IMG/VR virus record: IMGVR_UViG_3300044846_003114
Location: 1-64,000 of that record
Length of the DNA stretch: 64,000 bases
Source: a virus
Strand: one strand, 5' to 3'
This document shows positions 12,310 through 58,259 of the stretch, in pieces. The notes beneath the pieces were generated by a model that saw only the letters and a list, made by a program, of their open reading frames with translations, did no database searches and had not been told where the DNA came from. Numbering within the stretch: position 1 is the stretch's first letter; every line of letters starts with the position of its first letter. The translations under genes were made by a program, and so were the position numbers.

Positions 12310-12400
12310 ATTTTTGTTTATTTTCTTTTAATGTTAATTCTTCACATTTCCAACACCACTCCCTATCTTCCGTGTCCCAATTATGTCTTTCACATCTCAT
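12197..12400 (-). CDS. Small putative zinc-ribbon protein overlapping the GT2 start
   Basis: The N-terminus MRCERHNWDTEDREWCWKCE has Cx2H...Cx2C spacing suited to bind zinc, and it fits between the FKFF gene at 12397 (4-base overlap) and the glycosyltransferase. The second half overlaps the GT2 coding region in another frame, so only the first 30 residues look constrained. It could be a real small protein with a run-on tail, or a truncated gene. Confidence 0.45.
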   Translation of the reverse strand: MRCERHNWDTEDREWCWKCEELTLKENKQKYEDKFRHNSLQRVGGNQEISSVLIETQKVSGRDCDSI

Positions 12401-12639
12401 GCTACATTATTGTTAAAACCGATAATCGGACCCCCAAATATCGATGGATTCCCACCATTAATTCTTCTTGTTAATTCCTCAATAATGTTATTGTCAATTT
12501 CTCTAGCAATTTCATTAGACATCAATCTTGTTAATTCTTCTTCTGCGTCGATACCAAACAACTCTCCCTCTTGATGAGTCCATGTCGCAGTTAAACTACT
12601 CCTAATTACCCCATGAAAAAATTTAAAATTTTTAACCAT
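12397..12639 (-). CDS. FKFF-tag small protein resembling a segment of T4-type major capsid protein
   Basis: 80 residues from MVKNFKFFHG; an upstream in-frame ATG at 12684 would add 15 residues but breaks the shared N-terminal tag. The body, ATWTHQEGELFGIDAEEELT then RLMSNEIAREIDNNIIEEL, follows the pattern I know from gp23-like capsid proteins: Trp/Tyr-T, then (G)hDAEaEL, then EI-x-x-EI-(D/N). TRRINGG follows, a string also present in the FKFF protein at 51622. The glycine-rich end is GNPSIFGGPIIGFNNN. A virion role is inferred. It overlaps the next FKFF gene by 8 bases. Confidence 0.6.
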   Translation of the reverse strand: MVKNFKFFHGVIRSSLTATWTHQEGELFGIDAEEELTRLMSNEIAREIDNNIIEELTRRINGGNPSIFGGPIIGFNNNVA

Positions 12640-12879: not shown

Positions 12880-13155
12880 CTATTTTTTTGGTCTTGCAAA
12901 TAATTTAAATGTTTTACCCGATGTTGGGTCTGTAAACTTAATATAACCTTCGTTAGTATTTTGTATTCTAATAATAACTTCTGGTGATTCTACAGTTTCA
13001 TCTGCGGTTGTAAATAATTGTGGTTCATCATTATCAAATTGAATCACCCATTCACATGGCATGTATGTTTCAATTTTTGGTGTGTCGTCGATTGTTAATT
13101 TATCAATAACAGATTGTAATAATTCATCCTTTATTTTTTTTCTACCTCTTGCCAT
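12880..13155 (-). CDS. Small beta-rich protein ending in FKLFARPKK
   Basis: 91 residues. A basic N-terminus MARGRKKIKDELLQSVIDKL is followed by the domain shared with the neighbour at 12632 (WVIQFDNDEPQLFTTAD) and a C-terminal TSGKTFKLFARPKK. It lacks the N-terminal FKFF tag of its paralogue but keeps the C-terminal FKLFAR. It lies 2 bases from the upstream glycosyltransferase gene. Function unknown. Confidence 0.65.
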   Translation of the reverse strand: MARGRKKIKDELLQSVIDKLTIDDTPKIETYMPCEWVIQFDNDEPQLFTTADETVESPEVIIRIQNTNEGYIKFTDPTSGKTFKLFARPKK

Positions 13156-44403: not shown

Positions 44404-44640
44404 ATGAAAGTAATTGTAAGTGAGTCTCAGTACCAAAGAGTTATATCAGAAGGATTTTATGAAGCTGATAAACTATACCCAAGAGACTATATTGTTGGTA
44501 GATTAAACAGAGCTCCAAAATATATGAGGGGTTATATTAAGAATTTACCACATATTGAATGTACTGACAATCAGGGTGCACAATCAATCTGTACCCAAAT
44601 ACCCGAGGTGGTTTACCAATTTTTATTTGGGAATTTCTAA
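44404..44640 (+). CDS. Short leader-type protein, 78 aa
   Basis: Leader MKVIVSESQYQRVISEGFYE, very similar to those at 49101 and 56505. ISE-G fits an (I/L)xE prohead-protease site. The remainder (YIVGRLNRAPKYMRGYIKNL) is basic with two Cys near the end. Function unknown. Confidence 0.68.
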   Translation: MKVIVSESQYQRVISEGFYEADKLYPRDYIVGRLNRAPKYMRGYIKNLPHIECTDNQGAQSICTQIPEVVYQFLFGNF

Positions 44641-46542: not shown

Positions 46543-46550
46543 TATTTATG
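46543..46550 (+). promoter_or_regulatory. TATTTATG box
   Basis: One mismatch from TATTTATA; 3 bases before the ATG at 46554, same layout as at 44393. Confidence 0.35.
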
Positions 46551-46553
46551 GAT

Positions 46554-47072
46554 ATGAAAAAGGTTATTTTAACAGAAGTACAGTTCAATAAATTGGTTGA
46601 ACAAACCGTATTTTACGCTTTGAGTGAACTACCATCTCATCTTGAGTCTATAACGAAAGATGTTATTGAGGGCAAAAAAGCAATGGGTAAATTACTTACC
46701 TATTTAAAATCAATTAATATTGGTAATGTTCTTGAAGAACCTGTTAAGTACTCTAAAATTGTTCAAGATTGTTCCAAACTACATGAAGTTTATAGAACTA
46801 AATTTAACAAATATTATGATATTAGAGATTCATATGAACAACAAGAATATAACAATGATGGACGTTATAGTGATGAATTTAACAAGTTTGACCACTTAGT
46901 AAGTGATATGGATAATTTACAAACAGATTTAGATAACCTACATGACATGTATAATGACATTATTGAACCATTTGTTGAATATGGGAAAGTGTCCGAAAGA
47001 ATGTCATATTTTGAAAAAGAATATCCGCCAGAAACAATTAACATCACACCAATAGACAACAACCCTGAATAA
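46554..47072 (+). CDS. Leader-type helical protein, 172 aa
   Basis: Start taken at ATG 46554 (MKKVILTEVQFNKLVEQTVF) because it matches the leader family; an ATG two codons earlier exists. The body is nearly all helix (CSKLHEVYRTKFNKYYDIRD, VSDMDNLQTDLDNLHDMYND), a long coiled coil. Scaffold or internal virion role is possible. Its stop codon is the loop of a terminator. Confidence 0.65.
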   Translation: MKKVILTEVQFNKLVEQTVFYALSELPSHLESITKDVIEGKKAMGKLLTYLKSINIGNVLEEPVKYSKIVQDCSKLHEVYRTKFNKYYDIRDSYEQQEYNNDGRYSDEFNKFDHLVSDMDNLQTDLDNLHDMYNDIIEPFVEYGKVSERMSYFEKEYPPETINITPIDNNPE

Positions 47073-47090: not shown

Positions 47091-47120
47091 TGGTATATAC
47101 AAAATATAATTGTATATTTG
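47089..47120 (+). promoter_or_regulatory. Bacteroidota-type promoter
   Basis: TTTGGTATATAC directly after the terminator T-run, and TATATTTG at 47113-47120; ATG at 47142. Confidence 0.7.
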
Positions 47121-48774: not shown

Positions 48775-49104
48775 ATGGTAAAATCATTTAAATTTTTTTC
48801 TGGTAACGAAGATGAAGATGAGGTTGAAGAACATTTAATCGAAGCGTTGGACGATGATAGTGCTTCTTGGTCATGGACAAGTCTATTACCATTAACTAAT
48901 TACACATACGATATTGTTGAAACTCAAAGTGACGGTATACACGAATTCTTATATAGATTCCCCAATAGATTTATTGTTCCCGTATTATCAATAACAGGAC
49001 CAAACGGAAGATTTCATGATGCCAATACACAATATGAAGATGGTTGGGGATTCGACATTACATCCGATTTACTAACAATAAGGTTTTTGAGATTTGAGCC
49101 TTAG
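48775..49104 (+). CDS. FKFF-tag protein, 109 aa
   Basis: Starts MVKSFKFFSGNEDEDEVEEH. After the tag comes an acidic segment, then SWTSLLPLTNYTYDIVETQS and a beta-rich end (FIVPVLSITGPNGRFHD). Ends at its overlap with the opposite-strand metallopeptidase. Function unknown. Confidence 0.65.
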   Translation: MVKSFKFFSGNEDEDEVEEHLIEALDDDSASWSWTSLLPLTNYTYDIVETQSDGIHEFLYRFPNRFIVPVLSITGPNGRFHDANTQYEDGWGFDITSDLLTIRFLRFEP

Positions 49105-50246
49105 TCTTCTGCTAAACTATATAACTTACCTAGTTTTTTAAGTGTGTTTGTTGTTGAAATTTTAATATCTGATAATTCTTTTTGATAAAAATCAATATAA
49201 TCATTATAACTATTAATGTGTTTGTTGATTTTTTTCATTGCTTTAATTTTCGCCTCATTGTCACCCATCTTGACAATATTATCAGCAATACCAAGTGCAG
49301 ATGCTAACAACAACATTAAATCTGATTGTGAATCCATCATCACATCGTTAAGAAAATCTTTACGTCTTCTTGAAACTATTTCATAAAACTTTTTCAGTGC
49401 GGCGTTTACTTTTTCTTCATCAGTCATATTATCATAATCAATTTTAACATAACTTAAAAAAGATTCGATACCCTGAATACTATTGTACATCTCCTTAATG
49501 AATTTTTCATAATCATAATCCATCATATATTTTAAGAAATCGTATGTAGTTGTTTTAGTTAAGAAACTTTTAAATTGTTTTTTAGTGATTCCTTTTAGTC
49601 TCATTAGTGTATATATTTCACTGTTTCTAACACTCTCCTCAACAACGTGTGAATAATATAACATACTTTTAAATTTCATCAACGGACGAACACTAACCAT
49701 AAGACTCTCGATAGAATGATACTTAACTTTTTCACCCGCATTCCTTGTTGGTTTCTTATCAAAATCATATGCATGTTTCAACTCGTGAGCAATGGCCGAT
49801 ATTGTTTTAGTTTGAAATTTTAAAATACTATTAATTAAATCTTCTTCAGATGTATCTTCAGGTACTTGATATGTTGCACCCATAGCAAGACGACCACCAG
49901 TTTTTTTGTATGTTAGTTTGTAATCGTTTGTTAATTTATCACCAACACCAATACTCATTTGTTCAATTTCAACATTTCTATATTTGTCAAAATCAAATGT
50001 AACCATAAAATCAACACTATTAAAAGATAAATCACCAACATGATAATCACCCATAATTGAAAAACCAACATCGGTAGATCCACCCAATTTCATATTACCG
50101 AATTGTAGACCCACTTCTTCAACTAAACTATCAATATACTTTCTGTATATGGATTTTGCAGTATCGTAAATTCCTTCTGGAACCCCAACAACCTCATTTG
50201 CTTGGATTAGTTTCTCATATTGTGCTTCCGTAATCGATATCCTCAT
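49101..50246 (-). CDS. Leader-type zinc metallopeptidase (HELKH)
   Basis: 381 residues on the minus strand amid plus-strand genes. Leader MRISITEAQYEKLIQANEVV, then a beta-rich domain. The zinc motif HELKH is at 154-158 (AIAHELKHAYDF), with a possible third ligand in VEESVRNSEIYTLMR. A long helical C-terminus follows. Zincin family by motif. With the leader it could be delivered in the virion, or process virion proteins. It has a TATTTATA box 4 bases upstream. Confidence 0.75.
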   Translation of the reverse strand: MRISITEAQYEKLIQANEVVGVPEGIYDTAKSIYRKYIDSLVEEVGLQFGNMKLGGSTDVGFSIMGDYHVGDLSFNSVDFMVTFDFDKYRNVEIEQMSIGVGDKLTNDYKLTYKKTGGRLAMGATYQVPEDTSEEDLINSILKFQTKTISAIAHELKHAYDFDKKPTRNAGEKVKYHSIESLMVSVRPLMKFKSMLYYSHVVEESVRNSEIYTLMRLKGITKKQFKSFLTKTTTYDFLKYMMDYDYEKFIKEMYNSIQGIESFLSYVKIDYDNMTDEEKVNAALKKFYEIVSRRRKDFLNDVMMDSQSDLMLLLASALGIADNIVKMGDNEAKIKAMKKINKHINSYNDYIDFYQKELSDIKISTTNTLKKLGKLYSLAED

Positions 50247-50250
50247 AGTA

Positions 50251-50258
50251 TATAAATA
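50251..50258 (-). promoter_or_regulatory. TATTTATA box (minus strand)
   Basis: Reads TATTTATA on the minus strand, 4 bases before the ATG of the metallopeptidase; orientation follows the gene. Confidence 0.45.
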
Positions 50259-50280
50259 CTTTCTAAAAATAATAATAATA

Positions 50281-50314
50281 TTTTTGGATATTCAAAATAC
50301 TATTCGTATATTTG
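50281..50314 (+). promoter_or_regulatory. Bacteroidota-type promoter, leaderless
   Basis: TTTTTGGATATTC and TATATTTG at 50307-50314; ATG at 50319 exactly 4 bases later. Confidence 0.75.
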
Positions 50315-50318
50315 TGAT

Positions 50319-50759
50319 ATGAATACATCAATATTAACCATATTATTGTCATTACTAATAACCATTTTATTGTCATTATTCCCACTGTCAATCAACATCG
50401 GGAATGTACCGAATTCATACATAGAAGTAAGAAAACCAATTAGTTATGAGACAGTTACCCTTACAACCTACTCACCAACGGAAGGGGAAACAGATTCAAC
50501 CCCACATTTGACAGCCTCAGGGTTCAAAATAGATAAGGACAACCCCGAAAGACACAGAATCATTGCCGTTTCGAGAGATTTAAAGAAAAAGTGGCCATTT
50601 GGTACCAAGGTTAGAATTAAAATGGCTGGAAAATATAACGGAGTTTATACCGTTAAAGATGTAATGAACAAAAGATATAAAAATAGAATCGATATCTTAA
50701 TTGGTGAGGATGATAAACAAACCACCATAAAAAACGTAAAAATCACTAAAATTAAATAA
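50319..50759 (+). CDS. 3D-domain (double-psi barrel) secreted protein
   Basis: 146 residues. N-terminal membrane/signal helix (TILLSLLITILLSLFPL). Then the 3D domain: TLTTYSPTEGETD, LTASGFKID, RIIAVSRDLKKKWPFG, and VKDVMNKRYKNRIDIL with the conserved Asp residues. This is the fold of MltA and RlpA-like lytic transglycosylases, so a peptidoglycan-active or lysis-related role is likely. Confidence 0.85.
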   Translation: MNTSILTILLSLLITILLSLFPLSINIGNVPNSYIEVRKPISYETVTLTTYSPTEGETDSTPHLTASGFKIDKDNPERHRIIAVSRDLKKKWPFGTKVRIKMAGKYNGVYTVKDVMNKRYKNRIDILIGEDDKQTTIKNVKITKIK

Positions 50760-50760
50760 C

Positions 50761-51207
50761 ATGACTCCCGATTTCACAGTTAAACCATCCCAACTAATAA
50801 ACATTCTTTGGGTATTCATTGGTGGATTTGCACTATCCGCAGCAATGTCAACAGAATTTTACTGGATTGCACTTGTAGTTTTAATACCAATCTATAAGAT
50901 TTTAGATTATGCATGTTGGACCTACGATATCTATGACGACCGTATTGTAGAAAGTCGTGGTGTGTTTTCCGTAACAACAAGAGAAATATATTTCCATAGA
51001 ATTAAATCCGTAATGATGGAAAGACCGTTTTGGATGAGAATTCTTGGTGTAGGTAGTATTATGGTTAGAAGTTCAGACCAATTTACTAGTTACTTTGTAA
51101 TCTATGGTATTGATGACGTTGAAGAATTCTTAGAAGACTTCCAAGATGTTATTGAAGATAAAAGAAAAGAAAATGGAATGAAAGAATACGAAGTATTCCA
51201 AATGTAA
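50761..51207 (+). CDS. Membrane protein with bacterial PH (bPH2) domain
   Basis: 148 residues. Two helices at about 12-48 (INILWVFIGGFALSAAM, FYWIALVVLIPIYKIL). Then CWTYDIYDDRIVESRGVFSV, EIYFHRIKSVMMERPFWMRI and LGVGSIMVRSSDQ, the YdbT/bPH2 pattern. It starts 1 base after the 3D-domain gene. Host-like; role in phage unknown, perhaps envelope stress or lysis control. Confidence 0.85.
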   Translation: MTPDFTVKPSQLINILWVFIGGFALSAAMSTEFYWIALVVLIPIYKILDYACWTYDIYDDRIVESRGVFSVTTREIYFHRIKSVMMERPFWMRILGVGSIMVRSSDQFTSYFVIYGIDDVEEFLEDFQDVIEDKRKENGMKEYEVFQM

Positions 51208-51229
51208 AATATATATAGTAAAAGAAATT

Positions 51230-51622
51230 ATGGTACGCGAATTCAAATTTTTCAGAGGGTATAAACAAAATACATTAACAGAACAATGGGAGGATATTTT
51301 TAGAACTTATCCACCAACGCCAGGAACTGGAATAATAAATTGGGGCACAACAACCACCAACCCAGCTTGGATAGTTAATCCAGGGTTAGTTCAATACGCA
51401 ACATCCACCTATACTATACCTGATTATACTATAACAACAACACCGGGTACTGGTACTTACACAATTCCATTTAGTGGAACAATCAATACCGCAACAACAG
51501 GGTTTAGTTTAACAACATCAAATACAACCGGAACGGTAACAACTACGGGAGGTATTGGTGGAGCGTTTACAACAACAGGAACAATATCTACAAATACATT
51601 CTATACTTCAAATATTAAGTAA
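51230..51622 (+). CDS. FKFF-tag Thr-rich protein, 130 aa
   Basis: Starts MVREFKFFRGYKQNTLTEQW. From about residue 60 almost only Thr, Gly, Ser and Ile (TITTTPGTGTYTIPFSGTIN), a low-complexity beta-rich fibre-like region. Overlaps the next gene by one base. Probably extracellular or virion-exposed by composition; unknown. Confidence 0.65.
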   Translation: MVREFKFFRGYKQNTLTEQWEDIFRTYPPTPGTGIINWGTTTTNPAWIVNPGLVQYATSTYTIPDYTITTTPGTGTYTIPFSGTINTATTGFSLTTSNTTGTVTTTGGIGGAFTTTGTISTNTFYTSNIK

Positions 51623-52104
51623 TGCAGGACTTCAAATTTTTTCAAAAGGGGACATTAGATATAATGGATGGTGATGTGCGAGCAACTGCTTCATTCAATG
51701 CCGACACACCTGAAGGTTATTATACCAGAAGACGTTTATATCACACTGCACAAAGTGAATTATATAATAGACTTCGTAATCCATTTAATAATAATGAGAT
51801 GGAAAGGTACTATTATGATAGACAGTTAGGACGTTTTGAAACATTTAGACCAACATTAAATCAAGAGGAAGTTACAAGAAGAATAAACGGTGGAGGAACT
51901 GATAATCAAATTAAATTGTATCAAGCAACAAGAGTAACAACCGTTAATCCAAAGTGGTGGATGAAGATTAAGATGTTCCTTCAAAAGATAAAGATTAATG
52001 CAGTTATCGAAACACATAGCGAAGCGATAGGTATATTTTTTATTGCTGTCACCGTAACATTTATTTTTGGTTTAATGATTGCAAAAGTATTAAATGTATG
52101 GTAA
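51622..52104 (+). CDS. FKFF-tag protein with C-terminal membrane helix
   Basis: 160 residues. Starts MQDFKFFQKGTLDIMDGDVR. Helical RRRLYHTAQSELYNRLRNPF, then NQEEVTRRINGGGTDNQ sharing TRRINGG with the gp23-like protein at 12397. The C-terminal transmembrane helix is AIGIFFIAVTVTFIFGLMIA. Tag at one end and membrane anchor at the other. Overlaps the next FKFF gene by 7 bases. Confidence 0.65.
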   Translation: MQDFKFFQKGTLDIMDGDVRATASFNADTPEGYYTRRRLYHTAQSELYNRLRNPFNNNEMERYYYDRQLGRFETFRPTLNQEEVTRRINGGGTDNQIKLYQATRVTTVNPKWWMKIKMFLQKIKINAVIETHSEAIGIFFIAVTVTFIFGLMIAKVLNVW

Positions 52105-52322
52105 GTAAGTTCAAGTTCTTTCAACGGAACAAATATAAAGATAGATGTCGATTACAAATAGGTTCTTCGTTTATTTTGCGTGGATACTATTGTAGTGTAA
52201 CAAGAATGCTTCCAAACCATTTTGAATATTGGGTGCAAGAAACAGAATTCACTATTGCAATGAGTTATAAAGATTATTTAAACACACCATCTGCCGCAGG
52301 TAGACAATTAAATCGAATATAA
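52098..52322 (+). CDS. FKFF-tag basic protein, 74 aa
   Basis: Starts MVSKFKFFQRNKYKDRCRLQ, then IGSSFILRGYYCSVTRMLPN and a beta-rich middle. Basic. No family recognised. Confidence 0.6.
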   Translation: MVSKFKFFQRNKYKDRCRLQIGSSFILRGYYCSVTRMLPNHFEYWVQETEFTIAMSYKDYLNTPSAAGRQLNRI

Positions 52323-52323
52323 T

Positions 52324-52587
52324 ATGACAAAAGCAAGAAAGATTTTATCTAATACAATAAATGAATTGTTAAAAGAAACTTCATTAGAAACAAGAATTAA
52401 GATGTCATGTTGGTTTGTGTTAAATAATATGATTCACGATTCAGGTGCAAGAGAAGAGTCGGCATGGAATGAATCAAACCCTAGAGATATCGAATTAATG
52501 AGAATACTTGATGACAAAACAAAGGAATTAACAGATAAGATTTTGAAAGATATTAAAGAATGGGAAGAAGACGGTAAACCAGAATAG
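52324..52587 (+). CDS. Hypothetical protein, 87 aa
   Basis: MTKARKILSNTINELLKETS, then MSCWFVLNNMIHDSGAREES and a helical end. No tag. Lies between two tagged genes with 1-base spacing. Confidence 0.6.
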   Translation: MTKARKILSNTINELLKETSLETRIKMSCWFVLNNMIHDSGAREESAWNESNPRDIELMRILDDKTKELTDKILKDIKEWEEDGKPE

Positions 52588-52588
52588 T

Positions 52589-53083
52589 ATGATAAAACCA
52601 TTTAAACTACTCAACGGATACACATATAGTGATGAGTATACATTACCAACACAACAAAATCCACCATTCAATTTATCACATCGCCATTGGAATTTGTTAC
52701 CACAAGATTTAAGAGGTTCAACATTACAAGAAATGGAATGTTATATTCAAGGGTGGGAAAATGCTCGTAGTAATGTTGAAGCAAATCCATATCACGATAG
52801 AATAAGACGTAGTTTGTGGAATAGAGGGTTTTTAAGATGGCGTGGTAGAATAGAAATGAATTATGGTAATGTTAATCCCGACCCACCAATAGATGAAACA
52901 TATCCTGAGTTCTATAACACAGATGAATTAATATTCTTTGATGTAACGGAAGAAAGATTAGGTATGCTTGACGGTGAACCATATAAAGTTATGTTGTTCA
53001 GACATATTGAAGAGGGAAATACAATAGAAGGAGATACAATATATCCCGAACATCCAATGTATAATTTTCCTGATATAATATAA
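52589..53083 (+). CDS. FKLL-tag protein, 164 aa
   Basis: Starts MIKPFKLLNGYTYSDEYTLP, a diverged FKFF tag. The body is Asn/Pro/Trp/Tyr-rich (SHRHWNLLPQDLRGSTLQEM, RSLWNRGFLRWRGRIEMNYG) with a beta-rich end. No family recognised. Confidence 0.6.
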   Translation: MIKPFKLLNGYTYSDEYTLPTQQNPPFNLSHRHWNLLPQDLRGSTLQEMECYIQGWENARSNVEANPYHDRIRRSLWNRGFLRWRGRIEMNYGNVNPDPPIDETYPEFYNTDELIFFDVTEERLGMLDGEPYKVMLFRHIEEGNTIEGDTIYPEHPMYNFPDII

Positions 53084-53093
53084 AACAAATAAT

Positions 53094-53273
53094 ATGAAAT
53101 TTAGAAAAACACTCACAGACAAACGTCTTGAAGAATTGTCTGATAAGGTAAGAAGAGGAACCCCAATCTTAATGAGTGAGGCGATTGAAGTGGTGGAATA
53201 TCAAGAGATGTTAAAGAAGAATAAAGTACCTTTCACAGATAGAATAGTTAATTTCTTTAAAATAAAAATATGA
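53094..53273 (+). CDS. Small conserved phage protein, 59 aa
   Basis: Encodes MKFRKTLTDKRLEELSDKVR, then RGTPILMSEAIEVVEYQEML and a basic end RIVNFFKIKI. The (K/R)G-x-PI-x-x-x-EAI-x-V-x-x-Y(Q)E element is familiar from short phage proteins. The next gene starts in its stop (ATGA). Confidence 0.6.
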   Translation: MKFRKTLTDKRLEELSDKVRRGTPILMSEAIEVVEYQEMLKKNKVPFTDRIVNFFKIKI

Positions 53274-53719
53274 TAAAAGATTTCAAATTTTTTAGAGCTA
53301 ACGAAACAAGAATAAATTGGCAACTAACCGGTTTATTAGATGATGCAACAAATGTTCCATTATTGATTGGTGTATTGGACATCACGTGGAAATATATTGT
53401 AGATAATAATCTAATGGAAAATGATAGGGTTAAAAATATATTGATTATTGTTATGACCAAATTATACAGGGACAAATATAATTCTTATAGTGATTATGAT
53501 ATTAGAAGGAAGATTGATGAGGTCGCGGTTCATACGAATAGTGTAACAATAAGAAGATATATACAAGAACTTGCAGCGGGTGCTTGGATGAGTATTGATG
53601 TTGAAGCGGAAATTAATCATATTATTTATGAACAATGTAAATGGGAAGAAGATATGGTAGGTGAACTATTCCACACCAACGCTGACATAACTTTAACATT
53701 TAGAAATGATACCATTTAA
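53270..53719 (+). CDS. FKFF-tag helical protein, 149 aa
   Basis: Starts MIKDFKFFRANETRINWQLT. The rest is helical (LIGVLDITWKYIVDNNLMEN, IRRYIQELAAGAWMSIDVEA). No family recognised. Overlaps the next tagged gene by 14 bases. Confidence 0.62.
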   Translation: MIKDFKFFRANETRINWQLTGLLDDATNVPLLIGVLDITWKYIVDNNLMENDRVKNILIIVMTKLYRDKYNSYSDYDIRRKIDEVAVHTNSVTIRRYIQELAAGAWMSIDVEAEINHIIYEQCKWEEDMVGELFHTNADITLTFRNDTI

Positions 53720-53927
53720 ATTTTTTCAATCCGAACAAACAATTCGATGGAGAACGGCCAATGGGTTAACACATCCAATTCATACCATATCCATCGACCA
53801 TATTGTGAGTATCATTAGGTGTATGGATGGGGATGGTAATATGAGGATTCCAAATCCATATGAGGGAAGAACTCATGATGAATGGGTTAATATATTCCAC
53901 AACGAAATAGAAAGAAGAAGGATTTAA
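53706..53927 (+). CDS. FKFF-tag protein, 73 aa
   Basis: Starts MIPFKFFQSEQTIRWRTANG, then HTISIDHIVSIIRCMDGDGN and THDEWVNIFHNEIERRRI. Last gene of the tag cluster, followed by the direct repeats at 53931. Confidence 0.62.
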   Translation: MIPFKFFQSEQTIRWRTANGLTHPIHTISIDHIVSIIRCMDGDGNMRIPNPYEGRTHDEWVNIFHNEIERRRI

Positions 53928-56500: not shown

Positions 56501-56504
56501 TATG

Positions 56505-58259
56505 ATGAGAATATTAATATCCGAACATCAATACAAGTCATTAATTGATGAATCAAAAAATCTTCAGGAAGTACTTGCCGATGATATACCTGACTACATG
56601 AAGGATATTATACAGAAAAGATATAAAGGTGATTACTTAAACAGGGAAGTTCCAAAACACACCGACAAGATTCCAAATGTGAATATGGAGATAAAGAATG
56701 ATGAGGTTGTGGACTTTGCTTCAAATCTATTGATTAGATCGGTTACCGATAAGTTGGTGGAACAACTAAGAAAGTCCGAGATATGGAAGGAGTATAATAA
56801 CAATCCGACAGGTTATTCATTTGTTGATGGTCCTCTTAAAGTTATTATGAGGGCATCGATTCCAAGTTTGGAGAAACGATTACCGTATATGAGTGAAGAT
56901 ACTTCAAGTGTTGGTACATTGGTAAAGTATACTTGGTTTTATTCAAAGGCGTTTAGATTACCTGATAGCAGATTAAATAATGATTCCACATTGCAGGGTA
57001 ACCCTGAGGATGGTAAAGGATGGGATTATTCAATTAATGCGGATAAAATCAAATGGTCAAACAACACGACGGGTCTACCGGGATTTATTGCTGCAATTAA
57101 AAAGGTATTCCCAAAGACATTTGGTTATTTGGATGTGGATAAGATAACCAGGGATAAACACTACGTTGGGTTAAGGGAACCGATTATAAATTACCAACAA
57201 AACATTAATAAGATTGGTCAGTACCCATTATATCTATACATCACGGACAAACCTGACGATAAGTTAAGGATGTCGGTATCTCAGTTCTACGATTCATGTC
57301 AGAACATATACACTGGTGGTGAACCGGGTACACAATGGAATAAGAAGTTGTTATCGAATGTATTTGATAAGAACTCCAAGGTTGCCTATCTTATATATAA
57401 TAAACCGTATAAGGACACTAAGGGGAATGAACATCCGTACACTTCAATTGCGAGGTGTATATTAAGGGTTAATAAAGACGGTGGTGTAATGTTTGATAAG
57501 GTATATCCAACCAATCTACAAAACGTATTTTATAATATTATTACAGAGAGTACTGGAATAGAAAACGTGGGTAAGGATGATGACACATATGATTATGAGA
57601 ATGTGGATGGATTACCGACACCTTACATGGATAAGTATAAATTAAAGAGTACGGGTATAAATAATGAGGGTAAGATTAATGCATTAATGGCAGCATTAAA
57701 TGTTGACCGTAATAATATTGATGTGATTGATGATGAAAGAATCAATGTAAGGAACAGAAGATTCGATAATTCAAGGTATATTGTGGAGGACTATGTGGTT
57801 ATAACATTTGACGAGGCGGTTGAAAGATCATCAGATATAATGAGAGATGACTTTATTGAGATTTATGGTGGTCACGAAGTTATTGAAGTATTAAGTGGTA
57901 TTGTTGACGGGTGGGATTTCCTTCAAGTATTGGATATAGAGGAGGAGTACTATGATTATGTTAACAAAAAACACGAAGAGGAGGATGAATCCAATATTCC
58001 TGATTTCTTAAGTGAGGTATATGGTGTTGATACCGTATATGATATGGAAGATATCCTAAAGAAGAATAAGGTCAATGCACAACAATGGTTCTCAGGGAAC
58101 ATAGAAATGGATGAGATAGTTGAAAGACACGGGGGTGAGGAGGAGTTTTTAACAAGAGTATTAGAGTGGAGTCACGAAGAGGTTGGATTCACAAGTCAAA
58201 ATACATACGTTTATTACAGAACCGACCATACAATCGACAGGGATTACGTACCCCAATAA
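56505..58259 (+). CDS. Large leader-type protein of unknown function, 584 aa
   Basis: Leader MRILISEHQYKSLIDESKNL; start taken at ATG 56505, one codon after another ATG. The body has DKLRMSVSQFYDSCQNIYTG near 250, then IYNKPYKDTKG and SIARCILRVNKDGGVMFDKV, then a very acidic C-terminal third with many Tyr and Asp residues. The SCQN plus (A)R-x-I-(L)-R pattern recalls other large-phage proteins of unknown role. The largest leader protein in the window. Confidence 0.7.
   Translation: MRILISEHQYKSLIDESKNLQEVLADDIPDYMKDIIQKRYKGDYLNREVPKHTDKIPNVNMEIKNDEVVDFASNLLIRSVTDKLVEQLRKSEIWKEYNNNPTGYSFVDGPLKVIMRASIPSLEKRLPYMSEDTSSVGTLVKYTWFYSKAFRLPDSRLNNDSTLQGNPEDGKGWDYSINADKIKWSNNTTGLPGFIAAIKKVFPKTFGYLDVDKITRDKHYVGLREPIINYQQNINKIGQYPLYLYITDKPDDKLRMSVSQFYDSCQNIYTGGEPGTQWNKKLLSNVFDKNSKVAYLIYNKPYKDTKGNEHPYTSIARCILRVNKDGGVMFDKVYPTNLQNVFYNIITESTGIENVGKDDDTYDYENVDGLPTPYMDKYKLKSTGINNEGKINALMAALNVDRNNIDVIDDERINVRNRRFDNSRYIVEDYVVITFDEAVERSSDIMRDDFIEIYGGHEVIEVLSGIVDGWDFLQVLDIEEEYYDYVNKKHEEEDESNIPDFLSEVYGVDTVYDMEDILKKNKVNAQQWFSGNIEMDEIVERHGGEEEFLTRVLEWSHEEVGFTSQNTYVYYRTDHTIDRDYVPQ

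Follow-up and report, generated by a model that had tools for sequence, protein, structure and literature searches.

A short N-terminal FKFF tag on unrelated small proteins of a far-T4 phage lineage: a candidate docking or loading signal

The internal proteins of T-even phages are highly diverse, and only their capsid targeting sequence (CTS) is conserved (PMC3012670). In T4, IPI starts with MKTFKEF, and IPII and IPIII start with MKTYQEFIAE. In phage P1, the N-terminal residues of DarB are enough to load a reporter into the capsid (PMC9024508). The bactofilin peptide MFSKQAKS and the N-terminal helix of MreB bind membranes (PMC12448750, PMC3163269). The FKFF tag described here resembles the starts of IPI, IPII and IPIII in that small, diverse proteins have only a short N-terminal peptide in common, and its core resembles the FK-x-F of IPI. 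Unlike in T4, up to about 20 tagged genes are present per phage, compared with three internal proteins. The Dar proteins of P1 differ from the FKFF proteins in having no shared consensus, and their residues are dissimilar. Bactofilin and MreB, like the FKFF proteins, carry a very short hydrophobic and basic N-terminal peptide ahead of a folded body, whereas their peptides are each found on one filament-forming family and FKFF is found on 40 unrelated families.

The window is a stretch of 64,000 bases and part of a 131,212-base IMG/VR record (IMGVR_UViG_3300044846_003114). Its ATG genes were searched for the tag with the pattern M-x(0-5)-F-[KR]-[FL]-[FLIM]. All nine tagged genes named in a preliminary description were recovered at their positions. 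The tag had been placed at residues 3-8 and before H, Q, S, R or N; its first F is residue 3, 4 or 5, and it is followed, in gene order, by H, Q, S, R, Q, Q, N, R and Q. The FKLL variant is present in one of the nine genes (52589). The gene at 12397 encodes 80 residues because its start is the inner ATG at 12639 on the minus strand. The other 67 kb of the 131-kb record contained no convincing further tagged member. The tagged genes of the window and an untagged paralogue are given below.

12397..12639, minus strand: tagged gene, 80 aa, MVKNFKFFHG..., body homologous to a gp23 segment
12632..12877, minus strand: tagged gene, 81 aa, MNFKFFQKEE..., family with 5 members found
12880..13155, minus strand: untagged paralogue of the 12632 gene (body HMM E 2e-6)
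48775..49104, plus strand: tagged gene, 109 aa, MVKSFKFFSG..., tag, variable acidic linker and folded beta-rich body
51230..51622, plus strand: tagged gene, 130 aa, MVREFKFFRG..., Thr-rich body
51622..52104, plus strand: tagged gene, 160 aa, MQDFKFFQKG..., C-terminal hydrophobic segment, membrane-helix-like by eye
52098..52322, plus strand: tagged gene, 74 aa, MVSKFKFFQR...
52589..53083, plus strand: tagged gene, 164 aa, MIKPFKLLNG..., FKLL with its LL encoded CTACTC
53270..53719, plus strand: tagged gene, 149 aa, MIKDFKFFRA..., helical body, low-confidence model
53706..53927, plus strand: tagged gene, 73 aa, MIPFKFFQSE...

The tag was present in 9 of the 107 ATG genes of the window, and N-terminal shuffles gave a mean of 0.19-0.25 with a maximum of 4 (20,000 trials). 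Permuted control motifs were found 0-1 times per locus. Within 142 tagged proteins, the motif had 7 further occurrences in 14,567 internal positions. Hence, a chance AT-rich start motif was ruled out by the permuted controls, the rarity inside proteins and the N-terminal shuffles. The preliminary description had asked whether FKFF is any commoner at N-termini than expected; its frequency was far above the shuffles and the permuted controls, and the pattern within the lineage is much stronger than that description saw.

Relatives in IMG/VR were found via two tagged proteins, DNA patterns for the tag and one family alignment. About 20 contigs of one 'far-T4' lineage contained tagged genes, many of them as arrays. 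In the tandem arrays, a stretch of 20 kb held as many as 21 tagged ORFs (L009; 19 in L008), and the array ORFs often shared a few bases with a neighbour. A total of 182 distinct matching ORFs were collected, which became 176 once six that were spurious by eye were dropped. These formed 40 body families with mean lengths of 71-151 aa, and the turnover of families between contigs was high. One contig of 335,630 bases (G004) contained gp23, terminase and a head maturation protease as well as a tagged array. The genes of a T4-type head with maturation protease are thus found in G004 and are not visible in the partial record of the window. Among cultured phages, the G004 capsid protein was nearest to those of Microcystis phage Mel-JY01 and Flavobacterium phage immuto, and Rhodothermus phage RM378 was more distant. 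These capsid relatives and the promoter type described below suggest that the hosts of these large phages are probably Bacteroidota. The first 150 kb of immuto showed no tagged gene, and neither DNA-level searches of cultured phages nor tblastn with the 12632 protein gave a match. A scan for MIKPFKFF in bacterial and archaeal genomes yielded isolated, scattered matches, 16 in all, and no arrays, and a literature search for FKFF and phage found nothing.

The bodies behind the tag had been said to share little, and they were unrelated by blastp and by profile-profile comparison, both of which were used to look for full-length homology. When the tag was removed, hhalign placed 2 of 780 family pairs above 80% probability and one more near 50%. 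A single protein family with full-length homology was ruled out, as the bodies were not homologous to each other. Matches to the body profiles were almost all tagged ORFs; among the exceptions were two fragments at contig ends, tag variants, the untagged paralogue at 12880-13155 and the major capsid protein itself. The tag variants among body relatives were YKFF, FIFF and FQFL. No convincing Pfam or PHROGs match was obtained for most of the bodies scanned.

The resemblance of one tagged protein to a capsid protein segment proved to be real homology to gp23 (12397), and the segment in this family lies around 'LRAxW.PEL..D....IDAEAELT..LSE.I..EID..I'. A second tagged family (e.g., L053:1197-1685) contained a different gp23 segment, 'RR.AGRTIAQDLVPVQPL.PP' (Pfam E 4e-4, under the curated cut-off), which falls in the first quarter of gp23. 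The EF-Tu-binding Gol region is placed in the same quarter of gp23 (PMC3014915), and its overlap with the tagged segment is approximate. An untagged ORF of 64 aa with a gp23 piece was observed at L008 5804-5998 (HMM E 0.005). Moreover, a motif like that of ribosome modulation factor (RMF) was found in the tagged bodies at L064 2474-2761 (Pfam RMF E 2e-4, under the cut-off), at L009 12342-12557 (Pfam RMF E 0.16) and, by eye only, at window 52589-53083.

The consensus of the tag was M-(1-4 aa, often K/R)-F-K-F-[F/L]-[Q/R/S/K/T]-[G/K/N]. In a tally of 142 genes, the four core positions of which are biased by the search pattern, K/R and P/E/D stood ahead of the tag, and Q/R/S/K/T followed by G/K/N stood behind it. 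Residue -2 was K in 69/142 and R in 23/142, and T/S at -1 was rare. Within families, conservation was 0.955 in the tag, against 0.73 over the following 12 residues and 0.74 over the remainder, and the value of the tag is partly a selection effect because the tag defines the set. The tag was net positive and amphiphilic in 165 of the 176 ORFs, with acidic residues next, and alignment A2 contained an acidic linker of variable length between tag and body. In the AlphaFold2 model of the 48775 family, residues 1-25 had pLDDT <50, and blocks from residue 31 on reached 88-96; the tag is thus predicted to be disordered and outside the folded body in one confident model. A Foldseek search of this model against the PDB gave no match at E <= 0.001. 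The 53270-family model was of low confidence (mean pLDDT 60.6), and its low-confidence residues 1-7 count little because the whole model is weak. The general idea of a docking or sorting signal, proposed in the preliminary description, passed every available test and is well supported as a signal shared by unrelated proteins; the overall reading was supported in part.

The tag had not been recognised as a described signal, but a partial precedent exists: the core is like T4-type capsid targeting sequences, but the protease site is lacking. In the T4 core M-K-[TS]-[FY]-[KQ]-x-F, the F, the K and the final F/L agree with the tag, whereas E or F-I of T4 corresponds to F or L in FKFF. A prohead-protease site behind the signal would read [IL]-x-E. 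The pattern [ILVMF]xE followed the tag in 44% of cases compared with 46% in shuffles, whereas 7/7 genes of the MKLLDII class had it. A canonical processed CTS was ruled out by the absence of this site; despite the resemblance, FKFF was not filed as a CTS because the defining feature fails. The starts MKSFKFFIAE, MKSFKFFLNE and MKSFKFFMKE were found on larger proteins, of 303-490 aa, on six contigs (L222, L224, L228, L229, L232 and L238), which we read as T4-like; on L224, L232 and L238, they lie near other FK-x-[FYH]-[ILV]-x-E starts.

Two other N-terminal classes were found in the same phages. The MKLLDIIxE class, the genes of which adjoin the tagged arrays, appears to be their canonical, processed CTS; its [ILV]xE site was found in 7/7 genes, and its promoters were mostly late-type. 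The ESQ class, M-K-x-[IV]-x-[TS]-E-x-Q-[LYF], was observed on proteins that otherwise start differently. It is a candidate head-cargo signal, and a late-type element was the nearest upstream promoter in 22 of 40 loose matches. The median pI of the FKFF proteins was 6.5 compared with 8.95 for these two classes, which were located as follows.

Window 44404-44640: ESQ class
Window 46548-47072: ESQ class
Window 49101-50246, minus strand: ESQ class
Window 56502-58259: ESQ class
L003 5501-7829: ESQ class
L002 16339-16845, minus strand: MKLLDIIxE class
L003 3921-4744, plus strand: MKLLDIIxE class
G004 15550-48152: MKLLDIIxE class

Two motifs, GTATTTATA and TATnTTTG, were enriched upstream of genes. 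The former was found upstream of terminase, protease and tail genes and of many MKLLDIIxE- and ESQ-tagged genes, and was called late-type because of the genes that follow it. The latter is taken by us to resemble the Bacteroidota host element. The ratio of host-type to late-type among nearest elements was 17:2 for the tagged operons and 4:11 for the other tag classes (Fisher p 3e-4), and no difference in promoter type was found between tagged operons and other genes (p 0.36). Two host-type elements of the window, each a consensus match only, precede tagged genes.

47113..47120, plus strand: host-type (TATATTTG) promoter-like element, heading the gene run that ends with 48775
50307..50314, plus strand: host-type (TATATTTG) promoter-like element, upstream of 50319-52104

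In T4, the 120 bases ahead of ipI, ipII and ipIII lack TATAAATA and contain GTTTAC, the early -35 element. The tagged genes likewise have no late promoter directly upstream. Therefore, host-type promoters are no argument against packaging, and this objection was dropped. The GTATTTATA motif was often just 4-7 bases ahead of the ATG (G000 and G004; e.g., window 49101-50246, minus strand, and 40996), which would give leaderless late mRNAs if GTATTTATA is a promoter.

The best single mechanism for FKFF is that of an uncleaved signal which, like a CTS, loads small accessory cargo; we would give this a little less than an even chance. The tag M-x(1-4)-F-K-F-[F/L] may act as a short linear signal that a flexible linker joins to a large number of small accessory proteins with unrelated bodies. 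These proteins would be made from host-type promoters, a common receptor would recognise the tag, and the tag would recruit them into the assembling prohead, as does the T4 capsid targeting sequence, for delivery with the DNA at the next infection. The tag would stay on the protein because no prohead-protease site follows it. We infer the single receptor, the packaging and the delivery, as well as the destination of the tag and the timing. By analogy with the T-even internal proteins, the restriction of similarity among 40 families to the N-terminus points to loading. The IPI-like core, the MKSFKFF[ILM]xE starts elsewhere and selection at the peptide level are consistent with it. Furthermore, the tag is more conserved than the body, tag and linker are disordered and the body is folded, G004 contains head genes, the arrays adjoin MKLLDIIxE genes and two tagged families include gp23 segments; the host-type promoters upstream have their parallel in the T4 ip genes. 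Against loading, the protease site is absent, the two other classes with late-type promoters fit a cargo signal better, the pI is low (6.5 vs 8.95) and the similarity to the T4 core amounts to about four residues. If loading is true, these phages would deliver an arsenal of up to about 20 small, fast-changing proteins compared with the three internal proteins of T4, and cargo of this kind could be searched for by its tag.

The main rival is a docking motif that works inside the infected cell and brings the accessory proteins to one phage or host protein hub or to the inner membrane; we consider it credible but on balance doubtful. The absence of the protease site, the ratios of host-type elements (17:2 against 4:11) and the positive, amphiphilic tag before acidic residues all argue for docking, and the bactofilin and MreB peptides are membrane-binding examples. 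However, lipid-binding peptides are usually less specific than the strict F-K-F-[F/L] register, the K of the tag can give way to N, V, I or Q, and about a quarter of the genes have an acidic residue ahead of the F. It seems rather unlikely that FKF[F/L] has nothing to do with head packaging and is instead a new docking signal, left uncleaved, that gathers about 20 different proteins, including ones with capsid-derived and ribosome-modulation-factor-like segments, at one place inside the infected cell. If docking inside the cell is true, it would indicate a new hub in phage takeover. With either loading or docking, dozens of otherwise unannotatable families become one testable class.

The shared start could also be no signal and instead a duplication relic or a recombination handle, with the bodies replaced over time. 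The tandem overlapping arrays, the high family turnover between contigs and the gp23 fragments joined to the tag agree with such a history. However, the residues are kept although synonymous sites vary freely, which indicates selection on the peptide; with a handle for recombination, it is the DNA that would be conserved, and this explanation is improbable. An RNA or DNA element read as FKFF, such as a translation start context or a regulator site, is largely refuted and highly improbable: the codons are AT-rich and the overlapping genes are probably translationally coupled, but the element was rejected on the free synonymous sites, as 33 different 12-mers encode the tag at varying distances from the ATG. 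The share of TTT at the first F was 76% compared with 79% genome-wide, and that of AAA among lysine codons was 79% in the tag compared with 78% in the genome. This codon choice equals the genome average and thus places selection on the peptide rather than on DNA or RNA.
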